A stretch of 36,049 nt of DNA from an uncultured Bacteroidota bacterium (GTDB taxonomy: Bacteria > Bacteroidota > Bacteroidia > 2-12-FULL-35-15): positions 1 through 36,049 of the forward strand of contig CAIXIP010000083.1 in NCBI GenBank assembly GCA_903919535.1. Reading direction: 5' to 3'. This document shows, piece by piece, positions 4,367 to 20,436 of the stretch (position 1 is the stretch's first letter; the number at the start of each line of letters is the position of its first letter). Under the pieces are notes generated by a model. It had not been told where the DNA came from, did no database searches, and worked only from the letters and a program-made list of their open reading frames with translations. A program made the translations under genes and the position numbers.

Positions 4367-4516
4367 GATTTCATCAGATTAATTGTAGCAAATAAAATTA
4401 CTAAATATTTGACTAATGTTGATTATGTTTGGACTTGATATATATCACTATAAATGATGAGAAAAATCATCCTAAGTTGTTAAAGAAAATAGGATTCAAA
4501 AAATTAAGAATATTTT

Positions 4517-5548
4517 TTATTCGGTATCAAACAAACTTCCTTTATGAGCACGTGGGATTTTCCCGAGGTGCTTATAGGCAAGGTCTGTAGCTTCGCGCCC
4601 ACGTGGGGTACGCACAAGATATCCTTCCTGAATTAAAAAAGGTTCATATACTTCTTCGATTGTTCCAGCTTCTTCACCAACTGCTGTTGAAATAGTTGTT
4701 AAACCAACTGGACCTCCTTTGAACTTTTCTATCAATGCAGATAAAATTCGAATATCCATTTCATCTAAACCGTTCTTATCAACGTTCAGTGCAGAAAGTC
4801 CGATGTGAGCAATTTCGATATCAATAGAGCCATTGCCTTTTATTTGTGCGAAATCTCGGATACGTCTTAGGAGTGCATTTGCAATACGAGGTGTACCACG
4901 ACTTCTTCGTGAAATTTCAGCAGCAGCTTCATCAGTGATTGGAACATTTAAAATGCTTGCTGCACGGATAATTATTTTTTTCAAAAGTTTTGCATCGTAA
5001 TAATTCAAACGTGAATTAATTCCGAAACGAGCTCTCAAGGGTGCAGTTAACAAACCGCTTCGGGTAGTTGCTCCAATTAAGGTAAAAGGATTTAATTTGA
5101 TTTGAACCGAACGGGCATTTGGTCCGCTATCAATCATGATATCAATTTTATAATCCTCCATTGCTGAATATAAATACTCTTCAACAATCGGACTTAAGCG
5201 ATGAATTTCATCAATGAACAATACATCATATTCTTCAAGATTCGTCAACAAACCAGCCAAATCTCCCGGTTTATCAAGTACTGGGCCTGATGTGATTTTT
5301 ATATTTACTCCTAATTCTGATGCAACAATATTTGCAAGAGTTGTTTTTCCTAATCCTGGAGGTCCATGTAATAATACATGATCCAATGCTTCACTTCGTT
5401 GCTTAGCTGCTTTAACAAATATTTTCAAATTCTCCACCACCTCAAACTGACCCGTAAAATCATCAAATTCGGCAGGCCGCAATACTTTTTCAAACTCTTT
5501 TTCGGAAGAGCTTAAATTTTCGGAATCTGGGTTAACGTTTGGATTCAT
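4517..5548 (-). CDS. ruvB: Holliday junction branch-migration ATPase RuvB
   Basis: RuvB is the hexameric AAA+ motor that with RuvA drives branch migration of Holliday junctions in recombination and repair. Walker A is GPPGLGKT (62-69), Walker B is FIDEIHRL (111-118), sensor 1 is GATTRSG, and the RuvB signature PLRARFGI follows. The C-terminus is the family's winged helix ([10 protein letters not shown]... TPRGREAT). Length (343 aa) is normal. ruvA and ruvC are not in the window. Only 4 bases separate it from the upstream coiled-coil gene, so the two are co-transcribed. Confidence 0.97.
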
Positions 5549-5552
5549 TAAT

Positions 5553-6470
5553 TTATTTCAAAGTAATGGCTGATTGACCTACAATAACATCATCACAAAT
5601 GATATCTATCAAATATTTTCCGGGAATAAAGGCGCTAGGATTTGAACAAAATACATCAACAGCAACTTCTTCATTTTTATAATTTACATCCTGTTTAGCA
5701 GCAAAATATCCTTTTGATCCGTTGAATGAAACCATATTCATATCATCTTGCGATTTGCATAGTTCTTTTCCATCAGGCGTAGTGATGCGAACATAAACAG
5801 GTTTGGTTCCTTTTTTTGCAATTTTATTTTCGCCCAATACAAATGAAACTTTTATTTTCTCTACACGTGAAGCTTTAGTTGTTTCCACTTCTTTTGTTCC
5901 GCCAGATTTGAATTTAACGCCTTTTACGGTAGGATTCTCAGCTTTTAATATAGATCCTAAATTTACTGTGCTTTGTAAAGCGTCTTTATCTTTTGAAAGT
6001 TTTGTGGTCTTATCTTTTTCAGCCGTCAGGTCTAAGCTAACCTTAGCTTTTTCAGCGATTATAGTTTTATTCATTGTGTTTAATGAATCAATCTCTACAA
6101 CGTAATGTTGCATGATCTTACGAAGAGTTTCTGTCTCCTTCCTAAGTTTAGAAATAATATAAGCATCTCCTTTATGTTTTTCTGCTTGCTCAATTAAATC
6201 AGCAATTTCAACGCGTTTTGCTTCTAACTCTGTTTGCAAACCTTTGTCGTTGGTTTGTAATGTGGCATATTCTTTTTGCAAGGATAAAAGATCGTTTTTA
6301 ACATTGTCGCGCTCAATAAGCACTTCCTGTTTTTCAACTACTACTGTGTTTGCTCTGTTTTTTTCTTGCCACCAAAGCCAAGCAAAGGTTCCATTTCCAC
6401 CTAGTAATAATGCTAATAAAATCAATAAGATCTTATTATTTGATTTTTTTTCTTCTGGTTTATTTTCCAT
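5553..6470 (-). CDS. Membrane-anchored coiled-coil protein of unknown function (305 aa)
   Basis: One membrane helix (about residues 13-33, [14 protein letters not shown]) is followed by a long coiled coil (about 40-165) rich in E, K and L, then a C-terminal part (about 190-305) that reads as beta-strands ([31 protein letters not shown]). It is probably an envelope protein with a periplasmic stalk and head. The frame extends to GTG 6497, but a promoter -7 box lies at 6500-6507, so ATG 6470 (MENKPEEKK) is the likely start. It is the first gene of an operon with ruvB; no functional link is apparent. Any SMC-like match would reflect only coiled-coil composition. Confidence 0.75.
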
Positions 6471-15215: not shown

Positions 15216-16061
15216 CTAACAACATCCGGAACTAGGAGTGCAACATGATTGAGCAATAGGCTTGTCAGCATAAACAGTGATGCTAAAAATTCCAAAAGCT
15301 CCATTTTTATAATCTGCTAATTCCTTTCCTGATAAATAATTTTTCAAAATTTCATCAGGTATAGAAACAGCCTTCTCTTTTTGAATAGATTTGTTTTCGA
15401 ATCCGGTTTTTTCAATAATACTCAAATATTCATTTTTTTGGATTGCTCCTGAAACACACCCTGCATACATTTCTGCATCTTGTTTCAACCCATCTGGCAA
15501 TTCACCAATTAATACCACATCGGAAATTGAAAAATGCCCGCCAGGTTTTAAAACGCGGTAAATTTCTTTAAATGCATTTACTTTATTTGGAACAAGATTA
15601 AGCACGCAATTACTCACTACAACATCTGCCACATTGCTTGTAATTGGCATTCTTTCAATTTCTCCTAAACGAAATTCAACATTATTGAACCCCAATTTAT
15701 CTGCATTTTCTCTTGCTTTATTTATCATTGCTTCTGTCATATCAATACCAATGATTTTTCCAGTTTCCCCGGCTATTGCTCTTGAAACAAAACAATCATT
15801 GCCTGCTCCAGAACCAAGGTCAACAACAACATCTCCTTTTTTTATTAAAGCAAACTCAGTTGGTAAACCACAACCAAGTCCTAGGTCTGCATTTGGATCA
15901 TAACCTTCAAGTTTTGAATAATCTTCACTGAATATGGTGTAGTCTACACCACAAGTACTGCCTACGCCACAGCAAGATGTTTCATTTTGTTCTTTTGATT
16001 GAAGAGCAATTTCTGTGTATTTCTCTTTTACGATTTGCTTTAATTTTTCTGAGTTTTCCAT
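15216..16061 (-). CDS. arsM: Arsenite methyltransferase ArsM
   Basis: ArsM transfers methyl groups from S-adenosylmethionine to As(III). The SAM site is DLGSGAGND (81-89), with GIDMTEAM (105-112) as motif II. Conserved arsenic-pathway cysteines are C64 (GLGCGLP) and C202 (MYAGCVSGAI). The third Cys found near the C-terminus of algal ArsM is not seen; that region reads GAFGIFSITVY, as in two-cysteine bacterial forms. Extra cysteines cluster at the N-terminus (C30, C31, C37) and in a CC...CC tail (273-274, 280-281). Length (281 aa) is normal. It is the last gene of the operon, 40 bases after the FmdE-like gene. Confidence 0.95.
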   Translation of the reverse strand: MENSEKLKQIVKEKYTEIALQSKEQNETSCCGVGSTCGVDYTIFSEDYSKLEGYDPNADLGLGCGLPTEFALIKKGDVVVDLGSGAGNDCFVSRAIAGETGKIIGIDMTEAMINKARENADKLGFNNVEFRLGEIERMPITSNVADVVVSNCVLNLVPNKVNAFKEIYRVLKPGGHFSISDVVLIGELPDGLKQDAEMYAGCVSGAIQKNEYLSIIEKTGFENKSIQKEKAVSIPDEILKNYLSGKELADYKNGAFGIFSITVYADKPIAQSCCTPSSGCC

Positions 16062-16101: not shown

Positions 16102-16755
16102 TTATTTTGGTAAGCAATTTTTTAGTTTTTTATTTAATATATCTGTTTTGATAAAGTCGTTTTTTAGATTTGGTTTCCATTTAAATTTTTTAATTTCTTC
16201 AATTATAAAAATTTCTTCAGTGTTTTTAGAAAGTAGAAATTCAGAAAATTTGGTTTCAAGTTTTTTAAGATCGTCTAAACCGCAAGCATCCAGTTCCCCC
16301 TTTGTTGCCAATCTTCCCAAACTGTCAATAGCTAAGGGTTTCAATCCTGATCGTAATTTAACACCATATGTTGTTTCATTATCTATTCGTTGAACAATAA
16401 ACAAATAATTGAGACTGTCAGAAACATAAAAAGTATTGAATTGGTACCTCGCTCCTGTTAAATAAATTGCTATATCAGTAAGGCAGGGAGAAGGTTTGCT
16501 AACTATTCTTGTATTTGTTCTATCAATAACACTATCAGTGTATAGTTTGTAAAGTGTTTCTTTCAATCCTAAAAACCCAACTACTAATCCGTCACATAAA
16601 TGTCCGTGAAATTTTGCTGCATCGGATAAAGTAATGGATTGTTCATTTTGTAATCTTCCTTTTGAAAAGTCGGTATCTAATACTTTAATAGAAGGGTTTT
16701 GCGCCAGCAACATATTTGCGAAAAATGTAAATAGTATAAAGCTAATCAATCTCAT
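16102..16755 (-). CDS. Exported FmdE-like protein in the ars operon
   Basis: A signal peptide (residues 1-18, cleavage after LLA) precedes a domain like subunit E of formylmethanofuran dehydrogenase. Its FmdE signature is FHGHLCDGL (49-57: H50, H52, C54; Asp replaces the usual Pro), with SPCLTD (C91, D94) as the second part of the site and a later Cys in DACGLDDL. The usual C-terminal zinc finger of archaeal FmdE is absent. No other formylmethanofuran genes are present, so the methanogenic role is excluded. It is probably a periplasmic metal- or cofactor-binding protein serving arsenical redox or transport. Its ATG shares a base with the arsG stop (TAATG), indicating coupling. Confidence 0.8.
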   Translation of the reverse strand: MRLISFILFTFFANMLLAQNPSIKVLDTDFSKGRLQNEQSITLSDAAKFHGHLCDGLVVGFLGLKETLYKLYTDSVIDRTNTRIVSKPSPCLTDIAIYLTGARYQFNTFYVSDSLNYLFIVQRIDNETTYGVKLRSGLKPLAIDSLGRLATKGELDACGLDDLKKLETKFSEFLLSKNTEEIFIIEEIKKFKWKPNLKNDFIKTDILNKKLKNCLPK

Positions 16756-17471
16756 TATTCAATCACTTTTAAATATATTAATATGTAGTATAAACCTGTT
16801 AATACGAATAATAGTCCTGCAATAATGCGCATAACTTTTTCTGTTTTTTGAATGGCTTTAAAATATTTCCCCAATTGAGAAATGCTAAATGCTATAATAG
16901 TAGTGAAAAACATTACTAATGTTCCAGCACCGATCGCATAAAAAAAGGGATAAATAAACCCTGCATCGTTCTTAATACTCATGGGGATTAATGCACCAAA
17001 ATACAATGCACCACTGTATGGACAAAATGCCATGGCAAACAATGCGCCTAATAAAAATGAGCCTAGTAAGCCCTTCTGTTTGAACTTATCGCTCCATTTT
17101 TCGGTAAAATTTCCTTTCCCTAAAAAATTAAGTTTAATAACATTGAGCATTATTAGCCCTACGATTAACATAATTGGGCCCATATACTTTTCTCCATTAC
17201 CCTGAAAAAATTTGGCAACATGAAATTTACTTGCACCGAAAATTATTATGAGAGCAATGGTTGTATAAGTAAATGCCAAACCCAACGTGTAAAGTAGTCC
17301 ACTTAATAAAACTTTCTTTTTCCCAAGTGCATTGTTTTTTGCAATAAATGCTATGGCTGTAATGTTTGTAGCGAGTGGGCAAGGACTTATTGCTGTAAGA
17401 ATACCTAATAGCAAAGCAGAAATGAGTGGAAAATTACTGCTATTCATCCATTGATAAAGCGTTTCAGTCAT
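16755..17471 (-). CDS. arsG: ArsG-family permease (CcdA/DsbD-like, organoarsenical efflux)
   Basis: This 238-aa protein has about six membrane helices in the CcdA/DsbD transmembrane fold. The two signature cysteines sit in ISPCPLATN (C31) and FCPYSGALYFG, placed like the redox pair of CcdA. The sequence matches the family annotated as an aromatic aminobenzylarsenical efflux permease (ArsG), which travels with ArsF and is described for nitro-aryl arsenicals. An alternative reading is a thiol-electron conduit feeding the periplasmic thioredoxin-like domain encoded 5 bases upstream. Both ideas fit the operon; the sequence cannot separate export from electron transfer. Confidence 0.8.
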   Translation of the reverse strand: MTETLYQWMNSSNFPLISALLLGILTAISPCPLATNITAIAFIAKNNALGKKKVLLSGLLYTLGLAFTYTTIALIIIFGASKFHVAKFFQGNGEKYMGPIMLIVGLIMLNVIKLNFLGKGNFTEKWSDKFKQKGLLGSFLLGALFAMAFCPYSGALYFGALIPMSIKNDAGFIYPFFYAIGAGTLVMFFTTIIAFSISQLGKYFKAIQKTEKVMRIIAGLLFVLTGLYYILIYLKVIE

Positions 17472-17476
17472 GCGGA

Positions 17477-18343
17477 TTATTTTAAAAGGGCTTCAAGTTT
17501 TATTTTTAATTCAGGAATAAATTTAGATTCATCATTTGCTTTTTCAAATGCAAAATCGCTCCAATCTGTTATATTGTCCTTACCATTTACTACATTGTTT
17601 ATCATCAATGCGGTTCCAGTTGCTTGAAATTTTTCAGCTAGTTTTTCATTTTTAGGGTCATCTACATCAATAATTGAAAATACAATATTGCCATTTTTTA
17701 GTTGAGTTGAAAAGTATTTATCCAATGTAGCTTTAGTATTTGCTTTCATGTTTTTGCAAGTTTCGCATTGTCTTGTTCCATGAAAGCAATATACTTCCAA
17801 ATGGTTTTTGTTTGAAATACTTGAAGCAGCAGTTTTAGTTTCGTTGACGCTTTCACTCGAAGTTTTTTTGCAAGTTCCGTCAGGGTTACAATCTTTAGAA
17901 TTTGGATCTGCGCAACAAGACTTTTTTGGGCTATCACTTGTTTTTGTTGGCAACCCTGCTGCATCCCATGCATTCATTCCGCCATCTAGATTTGCGATAT
18001 TGGTAAAACCTTTTGCTTTTAGCATATCAAATGCCTTTTGACTTCTTCCACCCTTTTGACAGGCTAAAATCACTTTTTTGTCTTTGGGTATTTCGGATAA
18101 ACTGTTTACCAAATCTCCTAATGGAATATTTTTTACTTCTTTCACATCATATGCTTTTTCTGCTACCTCATCAGGTTCGCGCACATCTATTAAAAGTGCA
18201 TCCCCTTTTAAAATATCAGCAGCTTCCGAGACTGAAATATTTTCTTTTTCACTTTTGATATCCTTCTGTGAAGAATTTGTATTGCAGGCCATCATAAAGA
18301 GGCCTAGTAAAGTGGCTAAAATGAGATTTGATTTTTGTTTCAT
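17477..18343 (-). CDS. Lipoprotein fusing a rhodanese domain to an ArsF-type thioredoxin-like domain
   Basis: A lipoprotein signal with lipobox FMMAC (C20) places the protein at a membrane on the periplasmic side. Residues 36-133 are a rhodanese domain with active-site loop ACQKGGRS (C95). A Cys-rich linker follows (C143, C144, C152, C158). Residues 180-288 are a thioredoxin-like domain with C186, C193 and C196 in YCFHGTRQCETC, the pattern of the ArsF family (partner of ArsE/ArsG in reduction of nitro-aryl arsenicals). ArsF is usually a single domain, so the fusion joins persulfide/sulfur transfer to the reductase-like domain. It is 24 bases after the permease gene and 5 before arsG. Confidence 0.85.
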   Translation of the reverse strand: MKQKSNLILATLLGLFMMACNTNSSQKDIKSEKENISVSEAADILKGDALLIDVREPDEVAEKAYDVKEVKNIPLGDLVNSLSEIPKDKKVILACQKGGRSQKAFDMLKAKGFTNIANLDGGMNAWDAAGLPTKTSDSPKKSCCADPNSKDCNPDGTCKKTSSESVNETKTAASSISNKNHLEVYCFHGTRQCETCKNMKANTKATLDKYFSTQLKNGNIVFSIIDVDDPKNEKLAEKFQATGTALMINNVVNGKDNITDWSDFAFEKANDESKFIPELKIKLEALLK

Positions 18344-18367: not shown

Positions 18368-19345
18368 TTAAAGAATGAGATTGAATAAATAACCCGATAT
18401 GATGATACAAGCAGCTACAACACCAAAAAAGATAAGTAACATTTTTGTTGTCATAATTTTTTTAAGTAATAATCCTTCCGGAATGGATAATCCCACTACG
18501 GCCATTGAAAAAGCAATTGCTGTACCTATTGGAATTCCTTTTTGAACCAACACCTGCAGAACAGGTAATACACCAGCAGCATTGCTGTACATTGGCACTC
18601 CAACAATTACTGCAATTGGAACAGCAAGCGGATTTTCTTTGCTGATATAGGCTTCAAAAAATCCTGTAGGAATAAATCCATGCATTAATCCTCCTATTGC
18701 AATACCTATTAGAATATAAAGAGATACCCCTTTCATAATACCGAGTGCTTCTTTAGCAATACCAGGAAGGCGTTGAAAAAGTGTTTGTTTTTCTTCCTGA
18801 TAGGAGTTGTCTTCGATTTGTTTGTTAAGGAGTATTTGTTTAACCCAATCAGTTAGCAAGGGCTCTAACTTTAATTTTCCTAATATGTAACCTGCAATCA
18901 TCGATAGAATAATTCCGCTAAGCACATAAACAATGGTTACTTTCCAGCCGAACATCCCAATAAACATTGCAACAGAAACGGCATCTACCAAAGGTGATGA
19001 AATTAAAAAAGCCAAAGTTACACCCAATGGAATTCCACCTTTCACAAAGCCTATGAATAGAGGAACGGAAGAACAGGAACAAAAAGGTGTGATAGTCCCG
19101 AAAAAGGAAGCCAAGAAATAATCAAAACCATACCAATTTCGTTTGGTTAAAAAATTACGGACTTTATCAATGGGGAAATAGGAGTTAACGATTCCCATAA
19201 GAAAAGTGACAACTCCTAAGAGAATAAAAATTTTAATGGTGTCAAATACAAAGAAGTTCACCGCATCGCCTAGTTTGGTCCCATGTGTTAAACCAAATAC
19301 AGTGTAGATTAACCAGTCAGCAAAATATTGTAACCAATTGAACAT
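18368..19345 (-). CDS. DUF318/ArsP-type permease
   Basis: This 325-aa protein has about eight membrane helices in two related halves. The first carries the DUF318 signature TPFCSCSSVPLFIGF (about 86-100, two Cys), followed by GIPLGVTLAFLISSPL; the second half has GVPMYSNAAGVLPV and PIGTAIAFSMAVVGLS. A cytosolic loop (about 170-195) separates them. The family includes ArsP, which exports trivalent organoarsenicals such as MAs(III), the product of ArsM; other members move different metals or are uncharacterised. The operon context favours arsenical export. No acr3, arsB or arsC is in the operon, so this and ArsG are the only export candidates here. Confidence 0.8.
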   Translation of the reverse strand: MFNWLQYFADWLIYTVFGLTHGTKLGDAVNFFVFDTIKIFILLGVVTFLMGIVNSYFPIDKVRNFLTKRNWYGFDYFLASFFGTITPFCSCSSVPLFIGFVKGGIPLGVTLAFLISSPLVDAVSVAMFIGMFGWKVTIVYVLSGIILSMIAGYILGKLKLEPLLTDWVKQILLNKQIEDNSYQEEKQTLFQRLPGIAKEALGIMKGVSLYILIGIAIGGLMHGFIPTGFFEAYISKENPLAVPIAVIVGVPMYSNAAGVLPVLQVLVQKGIPIGTAIAFSMAVVGLSIPEGLLLKKIMTTKMLLIFFGVVAACIIISGYLFNLIL

Positions 19346-19357
19346 TTGTTTTAAGAT

Positions 19358-19807
19358 TTAGCAACATCCAGGCTCACTGCAATCGCAGCTATCACCCAAA
19401 TCGCTCATTTTTACTTTTTTCTTTTCTGTTGTTGGGCTACAACATCCACTTGATAAAAAGTCGGTTACACTTGCTCTGTCACCTTTTGTAGCAAAGCCTT
19501 TTTGTACCCATCTTGTCATACCATGCTCCATGTTTACAACATTGGTGTACCCATGATTAATTAAAAACCCTGCAGCTCTTAAACTTCTATTACCACTTTG
19601 ACAAACCATTACTAAATCTTTGTTTTTAGGGATTTCAGTATATCGTTCTTCAAATTCACTTAGTGGAATATTTATAATGTTAGGAACATCATAAGCTAAT
19701 TCTTCTACTTCGTGTTTTTCTCTTACATCAACAAGTAGAGCTCCATTTTTTACCCACTCTTGTGTTGTGGTGGGACATATTTCTTTTACTAATGTTTGCT
19801 TTTCCAT
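19358..19807 (-). CDS. Cytosolic rhodanese with Cys-rich metal-binding tail
   Basis: A single rhodanese domain (residues 10-110) has active loop VCQSGNRS (C69) and the usual VDVREKHE start. After residue 117 comes a tail with C122-C123, C141, C143, C148 and C149, which looks like a thiolate metal-binding segment. There is no signal peptide, in contrast to the related rhodanese domain in the lipoprotein two genes downstream. Possible roles are sulfur transfer, thiol-mediated arsenate or arsenite handling, or metalloid buffering. It starts 4 bases after the mini-thioredoxin stop. Confidence 0.85.
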   Translation of the reverse strand: MEKQTLVKEICPTTTQEWVKNGALLVDVREKHEVEELAYDVPNIINIPLSEFEERYTEIPKNKDLVMVCQSGNRSLRAAGFLINHGYTNVVNMEHGMTRWVQKGFATKGDRASVTDFLSSGCCSPTTEKKKVKMSDLGDSCDCSEPGCC

Positions 19808-19811
19808 TTTA

Positions 19812-20051
19812 TTAAGCGGTTAGTAAGGTTTTTATTTCGCTGATGTCAGCAACTCTGCCTTTTACTTTGATCACATCGTCAATCATTAAAACAGGTGTGG
19901 TAAGCACATTGTATTTCATCATTTCTTCGATATCTTCAATTTTAGTTACATCGGCTTCAATACCTAGTTGTTTTATAGCTTCCAATACATTGTTATAGGT
20001 GGTTTTACACTTTGTGCATCCAGGGCCTAATACTTTAATGTTTTTTTTCAT
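19812..20051 (-). CDS. Mini-thioredoxin (glutaredoxin-like, 79 aa)
   Basis: This compact thioredoxin-fold protein has active site GPGCTKCK (C12-x2-C15) and the cis-proline loop TTPVLMID. It matches the small redox proteins (TM0996/MTH895-like) often found in ars operons and may play the part of ArsE, the small redox protein of arsEFG systems; that match is inference. A TTG at 20078 would extend the protein but lies in a -7 promoter box, so ATG 20051 (MKKNIKVLGPG) is the start. There is no signal peptide. Confidence 0.85.
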   Translation of the reverse strand: MKKNIKVLGPGCTKCKTTYNNVLEAIKQLGIEADVTKIEDIEEMMKYNVLTTPVLMIDDVIKVKGRVADISEIKTLLTA

Positions 20052-20075
20052 ATCACGATATTTTTTTTCTTCATG

Positions 20076-20119
20076 CAAATATACTGCACTTTATATTTCA
20101 AGTTCGTAAATTGACGAAT
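20076..20119 (-). promoter_or_regulatory. Internal promoter and second, degenerate ArsR-like site
   Basis: The -7 box TATATTTG (20083-20076, minus strand) lies 24 bases before the mini-thioredoxin ATG. Upstream, GTTCG (20102-20106) and CGAAT (20115-20119) form an inverted repeat with an 8-base spacer, the same spacing and core as the main arsR operator. This suggests a second ArsR-controlled promoter for the genes after arsR. Confidence 0.5.
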
Positions 20120-20136
20120 GTCACTATCAAGCTATT

Positions 20137-20436
20137 TCAGTCGAAAAAACCAATCATCAATCCTTTAGCAAGGTTCCAGTTGTCTTTATTGATACAGTAT
20201 TTTGTTTTAGGAAGAGTGATTTCGCCTTGTATCAGTCCAGCTTCTCTTAATACCTTTAAATGTTGTGAAAGTGTACTGTTAGCAATAGGAAGCTCCTCTG
20301 ACATATCACCATGGTAACAACAATTTTGTTTTGATAGCAATTGTAAGATGGCCACCCGCACTGGATGTCCGAGCGCATTGCCAAACTTTGCCATAAGCTC
20401 TTGTTTGTCTGTGTATTTTTTTGTTTCTGTTGACAT
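20137..20436 (-). CDS. arsR: ArsR/SmtB-family repressor
   Basis: This 99-aa winged-helix repressor is the first gene of the operon. The recognition helix is in LPIANSTLSQHLKVLREAGLI (49-69). Candidate metalloid ligands are C39 and C40 (KQNCCYHGD, at the position where many ArsR proteins carry their thiols) and C81 in the wing (KYCIN), enough for a three-thiolate As(III) site; this assignment is inference. The start codon is 5 bases from a perfect inverted repeat that surrounds its own -7 box, so strong autoregulation is expected. Confidence 0.92.
   Translation of the reverse strand: MSTETKKYTDKQELMAKFGNALGHPVRVAILQLLSKQNCCYHGDMSEELPIANSTLSQHLKVLREAGLIQGEITLPKTKYCINKDNWNLAKGLMIGFFD

Follow-up and report, generated by a model that had tools for sequence, protein, structure and literature searches.

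A rhodanese–ArsF fusion lipoprotein in a Bacteroidota arsenic operon: a possible envelope-side end of a thiol relay

A gene in an arsenic operon of an uncultured Bacteroidota bacterium joins a rhodanese to an ArsF domain, which raises the question of whether this union is genuine and what such a protein would do. The gene was analyzed within the window, a stretch of 36,049 nucleotides, and the features of the operon are collected in Table 1. An earlier note on this DNA had read a lipobox, a rhodanese domain with intact Cys95, a Cys-rich linker and an ArsF-type domain in one chain, and each of these elements was confirmed: the gene encodes an exported lipoprotein uniting a rhodanese and an ArsF.

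Table 1. Features of the arsenic operon and of the fusion lipoprotein, in operon order (window positions).
Feature	Position	Strand	Evidence
ArsR-family repressor, first gene of the operon	20137..20436	-	NF033788, 56.2 bits (cut-off 55)
ArsE, MTH895/ArsE thioredoxin-like, GCTKC, cytosolic	19812..20051	-	TIGR00412, 102.2 bits (curated cut-off 62)
Second rhodanese, cytosolic, active-site Cys69, Cys-rich tail; C122, 123, 141, 143, 148, 149	19358..19807	-	PF00581
ArsP_1 permease, TPFCSC motif (CSC at residues 89-91)	18368..19345	-	PF03773, 211 bits (gathering 32.3)
Rhodanese–ArsF fusion lipoprotein, 288 aa, ATG start	17477..18343	-	NF040494, PF00581, five further fused homologues, AlphaFold2 model
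Signal peptide and lipobox LFMMAC, Cys20	18284..18343	-	Sequence; hydrophobic core score 2.63
Rhodanese domain, residues 38-128, active-site loop CQKGGR, Cys95	17960..18232	-	PF00581, 63.9 bits vs 22.2, E=2e-17
Cys-rich linker CCADPNSKDCNPDGTCKK, residues 143-160; C143, 144, 152, 158	17864..17917	-	Conserved motif
ArsF domain, residues 182-284, thioredoxin-like, FH-x4-CxTC, no cis-proline	17492..17800	-	NF040494, 104.5 bits (curated cut-off 60)
ArsG, CcdA/DsbD-beta-like membrane protein, Cys31 and Cys150	16755..17471	-	NF040495, 276.4 bits (cut-off 200)
Exported FmdE-domain protein	16102..16755	-	PF02663, E=5e-12; N-terminal signal in sequence
ArsM arsenite methyltransferase, Cys-rich tail	15216..16061	-	NF008823, 349 bits (cut-off 263)

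The fusion begins with an N-terminal signal that carries a lipobox cysteine, MKQKSNLILATLLGLFMMAC, and the lipoboxes of the other fused homologues read MMSC, SLSC, IMSC, LISC and ILSC. In Bacteroidota an acidic stretch after the lipobox marks surface lipoproteins. The residues following the lipobox of the fusion are NTNSSQ, without such a stretch, which makes a periplasm-facing anchor the simplest reading, and the protein is probably tethered to the membrane on that side, in keeping with the membrane tethering proposed in the earlier note. Export appears to be general for ArsF, since all 43 complete N-termini look exported (42 with a strong hydrophobic signal after ATG and that of locus L011 after GTG), with a lipobox in about 30 of them. 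Besides Cys20 in MMAC, the cysteines of the fusion are Cys95 in CQKGGRS, the four of the linker, and Cys186, Cys193 and Cys196 in the ArsF domain. While the three ArsF cysteines that had been pointed out are all present, only Cys193 and Cys196, which form the CxTC pair, are invariant in the family (43 of the 43 rows with letters there), and position 186 is a cysteine in 14 of 44 homologues. The AlphaFold2 model of the fusion contained two confident domains, mostly above 90 pLDDT (mean pLDDT 84), joined by a low-confidence linker, and gave no fixed arrangement or interface between rhodanese and ArsF (pTM 0.46). The matches listed by Foldseek for the fused model were rhodaneses throughout and carry little information on the ArsF fold.

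The fusion was found in six genomes, that of the window and those of loci L009 (G409), L010 (G433), L011, L036 (G064) and L037 (G330), and the fused homologues among the loci of the first homologue search were 54-79% identical over the best segment. This recurrence excludes chance and also an assembly artefact, a doubt that had been attached to the earlier reading. In eight further loci (L012-L018, L020) a rhodanese lipoprotein and an ArsF lipoprotein are encoded by separate genes that are adjacent or have one DinB-family gene between them, and in a class-wide sample of 395 evenly drawn genomes most ArsF genes were without any rhodanese. As most ArsF genes stand without a rhodanese, some beside one and some fused to one, a likely order of events is therefore ArsF alone, then a rhodanese neighbor, then fusion. 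Among 87 genomes of one order, all seven copies of the lipoprotein rhodanese lay within about 1.3 kb of ArsF, and in locus L047 ArsF has as its neighbor a divergent rhodanese that is exported and ends in a Cys-rich tail of its own. In the rhodanese tree the cytosolic clade (98/97) and the lipoprotein clade (84/93) are sisters with modest support (82/67), and such a pair of clades, one for each side of the membrane, suggests that the two rhodaneses of the operon arose by duplication within it. The fused domains fall on one side of a branch in this tree (75/97; 78% of bootstrap trees), which fits one fusion event, and the ArsF tree needs two to three changes; one or more fusion events are possible on these trees. 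Loci L019, L021 and L046 of the ArsF tree carry the cytosolic rhodanese only and not the split pair, and the topology stands. The arsF gene itself is patchy, being present in 4 of 36 genomes of the genus of the window, a pattern that suggests gain and loss or transfer.

The eight genes of the operon all lie on the minus strand in the order arsR, arsE, rhodanese, arsP-like, rhodanese-arsF, arsG, fmdE and arsM, with intergenic gaps of 58, 4, 12, 24, 5, -1 and 40 bases, the first measured to the TTG start of ArsE. These short gaps speak for a single transcription unit, and the stretch from ArsR to ArsM is therefore very probably transcribed as one. The TTG start listed for ArsE at 20078 (19812-20078) is probably wrong, the ATG at 20051 being the conserved start. 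Since ArsE, ArsF and ArsG each score above the curated cut-off, the known ArsE/F/G set is complete here; the completeness of this set was missed by the earlier note, as were the second rhodanese on the cytosolic side and the origin of the fusion from two neighboring lipoprotein genes. The operon resembles known ArsEFG systems (NF040494, NF040495, TIGR00412) in these three genes and in being led by arsR. It differs from them in the fusion of ArsF to a rhodanese lipoprotein, in the additional cytosolic rhodanese, and in a topology that speaks for an electron relay rather than for a cytosolic enzyme with a pump. The arsenic context that had been claimed was upheld by ArsM and ArsR within the operon and, in relatives, by a further ars gene set (ArsR, ArsC and once Acr3) after the operon in L013, L015 and L018; in Prevotella nigrescens the order is arsR-F-G-E-P-C-acr3. 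Cysteines 40 and 81 of ArsR (window protein numbering) are conserved in 23 of 23 sequences. The permease belongs by its PF03773 score to the ArsP family, with organoarsenical transport as a prediction, and its CSC is kept in 31 of 31 sequences. Its TPFCSC motif is one that has been reported for cluster 2 of ArsP (PMC4435449), although its scores for the NCBIfam models that it matched (SaoE, SO_0444) stay under their curated cut-offs. Elsewhere in the host genome there is an Acr3-type arsenite efflux gene (G000:C222:947-1957, locus L067) with 37% identity to the Prevotella Acr3.

The neighbor of the fusion had been described as a CcdA-like permease that could feed it electrons. The likeness held and the proposed role was supported, and what had been overlooked is that this permease is ArsG itself. 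In the class-wide sample ArsG was above its cut-off in 26 of 395 genomes, and ArsF was found in 25 of these together with a truncated copy in the remaining one (G338), so that the two occur in the same 26 genomes, adjacent every time, and are obligate partners. ArsG orthologues have Cys31 in 39 of 40 and Cys150 in 40 of 40 sequences and no other conserved cysteines. When an ArsG profile was searched against the PDB the sole confident match was CcdA (5vkv, E=1.2e-4), while the same search with the single ArsG sequence returned no match, CcdA being reached by the profile only. The window ArsG also matched PF13386 (E=7e-14), and with its two membrane cysteines it has the make-up of a CcdA homologue. 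Comparison of folds placed CcdA among the best matches (189 residues aligned, Z 6.9, 18% identity); homology to Rnf/Nqr subunits or to larger transporters was considered and rejected, these having similar Z values (5-7) with poorer rmsd or coverage. Many of the sub-threshold ArsG relatives in Bacteroidia have the length of DsbD (660-860 aa). ArsG Cys31 is aligned with the first cysteine of CcdA, and Cys150, in a Cys-Pro pair, falls within the TM4 motif that holds the second DsbD/CcdA cysteine but is displaced from it by one to two residues.

On the cytosolic side, none of 28 ArsE sequences had a signal peptide. A cytosolic thioredoxin-like protein, a two-cysteine membrane conduit and an exported thioredoxin-like protein together suggest the layout of DsbD distributed over three genes, and it is likely, judging by these sequences, that ArsE, ArsG and ArsF form a DsbD-like thiol relay, in which electrons would pass from ArsE to the two cysteines of ArsG and from there across the membrane to the CxTC of the lipoprotein ArsF. 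This arrangement shares with DsbD/CcdA relays the donor, the conduit and the exported partner, and differs from them in its division over three genes, its arsenic-operon setting, the loss of the cis-proline from ArsF and the shift of the second ArsG cysteine. The FH-x4-CxTC motif of ArsF is nearly invariant in the family, while the position of the cis-proline is occupied by Ala, Ser or Gly in 44 of 44 sequences, which is not the canonical thioredoxin pattern. In other thioredoxin folds the cis-proline is reported to prevent metal binding. ArsF, which lacks it, could thus bind a thiophilic metalloid, and may do so rather than acting as a plain reductase; the missing cis-proline counts against the relay reading of ArsF.

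The rhodanese loop is of the six-residue sulfurtransferase type, C-X4-R, in all operon rhodaneses, and together with PF00581 it predicts sulfurtransferase activity for the fusion. The domain might instead be an Acr2/Cdc25-type arsenate reductase driven by ArsF; this fits the arsenic operon and the shared fold superfamily of these enzymes and rhodanese (PMC6272796). The loop of Acr2/Cdc25 is His-Cys-X5-Arg, however, against Ala-Cys-X4-Arg (ACQKGGR) in the fusion, which argues against direct arsenate reduction by the rhodanese domain, and an Acr2-type reductase was rejected on this ground as highly improbable. Of the 14 lipoprotein rhodaneses in the main clade, 13 have the linker motif CC-x7-C-x5-C, which is doubled in L013-L015, as expected for a binding module; the exception is L011, in which it is absent. 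Similar Cys-rich C-terminal tails were seen on the cytosolic rhodanese (SGCC...CDCSEPGCC) and on ArsM (SCCTPSSGCC). Periplasmic PspE of E. coli releases sulfide with a dithiol acceptor, and it was proposed that Dsb electrons reduce the PspE persulfide to sulfide that precipitates metals; loss of PspE and GlpE left cadmium sensitivity in E. coli unchanged (PMC2593051). An interaction of GlpE with thioredoxin has also been described (Ray et al. 2000, cited in PMC2593051). The operon studied here encodes the components for such a reaction side by side. The operon resembles the PspE/GlpE pair in placing a rhodanese on either side of the membrane and in having a periplasmic one whose E. coli counterpart has a known sulfide-releasing chemistry, but its rhodaneses are sister copies within one arsenic operon, have Cys-rich tails, and in one case are fused to a thioredoxin-like domain. 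In Persicobacter a lipoprotein joins a rhodanese to a canonical thioredoxin (L069 2926-3648, L070 2953-3714). It has the same architecture of lipobox, rhodanese and thioredoxin fold as the fusion, while its thioredoxin retains the cis-proline, is about 26% identical and is not ArsF; as an analogy it speaks for the coupling of rhodaneses to thioredoxins as a theme. In the literature searched, no paper dealt with a rhodanese and ArsEFG together.

For the fusion, thiosulfate or polysulfide would donate sulfane sulfur to Cys95 to give a persulfide, and reduced ArsF, fused to the rhodanese here and encoded beside it in relatives, would remove this persulfide as sulfide or keep the rhodanese active. 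A functional coupling of rhodanese and ArsF is regarded as reasonably probable. In a further, speculative step, trivalent arsenicals that the ArsP-type permease brings to the envelope could be captured by that sulfur or by the Cys-rich linker, giving thioarsenicals or Cys complexes that would not re-enter the cell; the cytosolic rhodanese with ArsE might perform the mirror-image task inside. That the product is sulfide or a thioarsenical is doubtful. Since most ArsF loci are without a rhodanese, sulfur transfer can only be an accessory to the core function, not that function itself. Our best guess is that ArsF is reduced by the relay and would draw on the rhodanese persulfide for sulfur or electrons, with the result that arsenicals may be thiolated, sequestered or reduced in the envelope. 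Taken as a whole, the reading in which a DsbD-like thiol relay of three genes ends at the fusion, on the envelope side, and includes a rhodanese sulfur step is given a little less than an even chance. It is favored by the obligate ArsF-ArsG pairing, the opposite sides of ArsE and ArsF, the two cysteines and CcdA match of ArsG, the tie of the rhodanese to ArsF, the sister rhodaneses, the Persicobacter parallel, the PspE chemistry and the arsenic context. Against it stand the missing cis-proline, the Cys150 shift, the many rhodanese-free ArsF loci, L011 without linker cysteines, the negative cadmium test in E. coli and the low pTM. A wider version, in which each face of the membrane has a rhodanese paired with a thioredoxin-like protein and ArsG joins the pairs as an electron carrier and not an efflux pump, forming a dedicated membrane-spanning sulfur/electron circuit for arsenic, with envelope sulfide or persulfide yielding thioarsenicals or sulfide complexes, appears rather doubtful.

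The published and annotated reading of these genes is that ArsE and ArsF together make up a nitroreductase acting on nitrophenyl arsenicals such as roxarsone and nitarsone and that ArsG exports the amino product, with the rhodanese as helper or passenger. An ArsE/F/G organoarsenical set was reportedly described by Chen, Zhang and Rosen in 2019, as cited in PMC9144182, and the title of that work was counted for the nitroreductase, as were the NCBIfam names of ArsF and ArsG. ArsG is likewise an efflux transporter, and ArsE and ArsF are organoarsenical resistance genes, in PMC9144182. However, ArsE and ArsF were predicted on opposite membrane sides in every complete case, which is hard to fit to one soluble enzyme, ArsG is like an electron carrier in sequence and fold, and the hosts appear to include environmental lineages without obvious exposure to synthetic nitroarsenicals, so that we regard this reading of the operon as unlikely.

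An arsenic or metal chaperone, in which linker, CxTC and rhodanese cysteine would hold trivalent arsenicals at the envelope and hand them to the ArsP-type permease or receive them from it, with no sulfur transfer, is in accord with the frequent and sometimes doubled Cys-rich motif, with the similar tails on the cytosolic rhodanese and ArsM, and with the loss of the cis-proline. It would not explain why the C-X4-R loop is kept in every operon rhodanese examined or why L011, without linker cysteines, keeps both domains, and a CcdA-like partner would be unnecessary; it too is thought improbable. Plain thiol repair, with the relay keeping an envelope protein reduced under arsenic stress and the rhodanese clearing persulfide damage, would find a client in the exported FmdE-domain protein, which has a conserved HGHxC and further cysteines and follows arsG in many loci, whereas no FmdE gene was seen beside arsG in many other ArsEFG loci, and this explanation is considered very unlikely. 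The relay with a rhodanese step is the reading we prefer. In Bacteroidota genomes ArsG carries the annotation of an aminobenzylarsenical efflux permease and ArsF that of a nitroreductase subunit, while their anatomy points to an envelope thiol relay; new here is a rhodanese-ArsF variant of the known ArsEFG, which calls the efflux-permease annotation of ArsG into question. Should the rhodanese supply sulfur as well, the operon would amount to a genetic system devoted to producing thioarsenicals or sulfide at the envelope. Such an idea was put forward in 2008 for PspE and heavy metals, but the cadmium test in E. coli did not support it.

Several smaller observations were made along these loci. 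The HGHxCD motif of the FmdE-domain protein is conserved in at least 18 of 20 sequences, together with further cysteines, and its gene follows arsG in many environmental loci. The arsG gene is split by a stop into two pieces in L009 (2613-3365) and L031 (780-1493). A DinB-family gene lies upstream of arsF inside the operon in L013-L017 and L019-L021, and that of L019 matched Mycothiol-S-transferase PF04978 (E=1e-11) and DinB_2 (E=1.5e-17), hinting at a low-molecular-weight thiol. Inside the operon of L014 (7064-7654) there is a MerC-like membrane protein with a C-terminal GDCCVxC domain, and the operon of L009 is followed at 4389-5702 by a flavoprotein with a weak relationship to type III sulfide:quinone reductase (NF049943, 59.5 bits, far short of the cut-off of 525).
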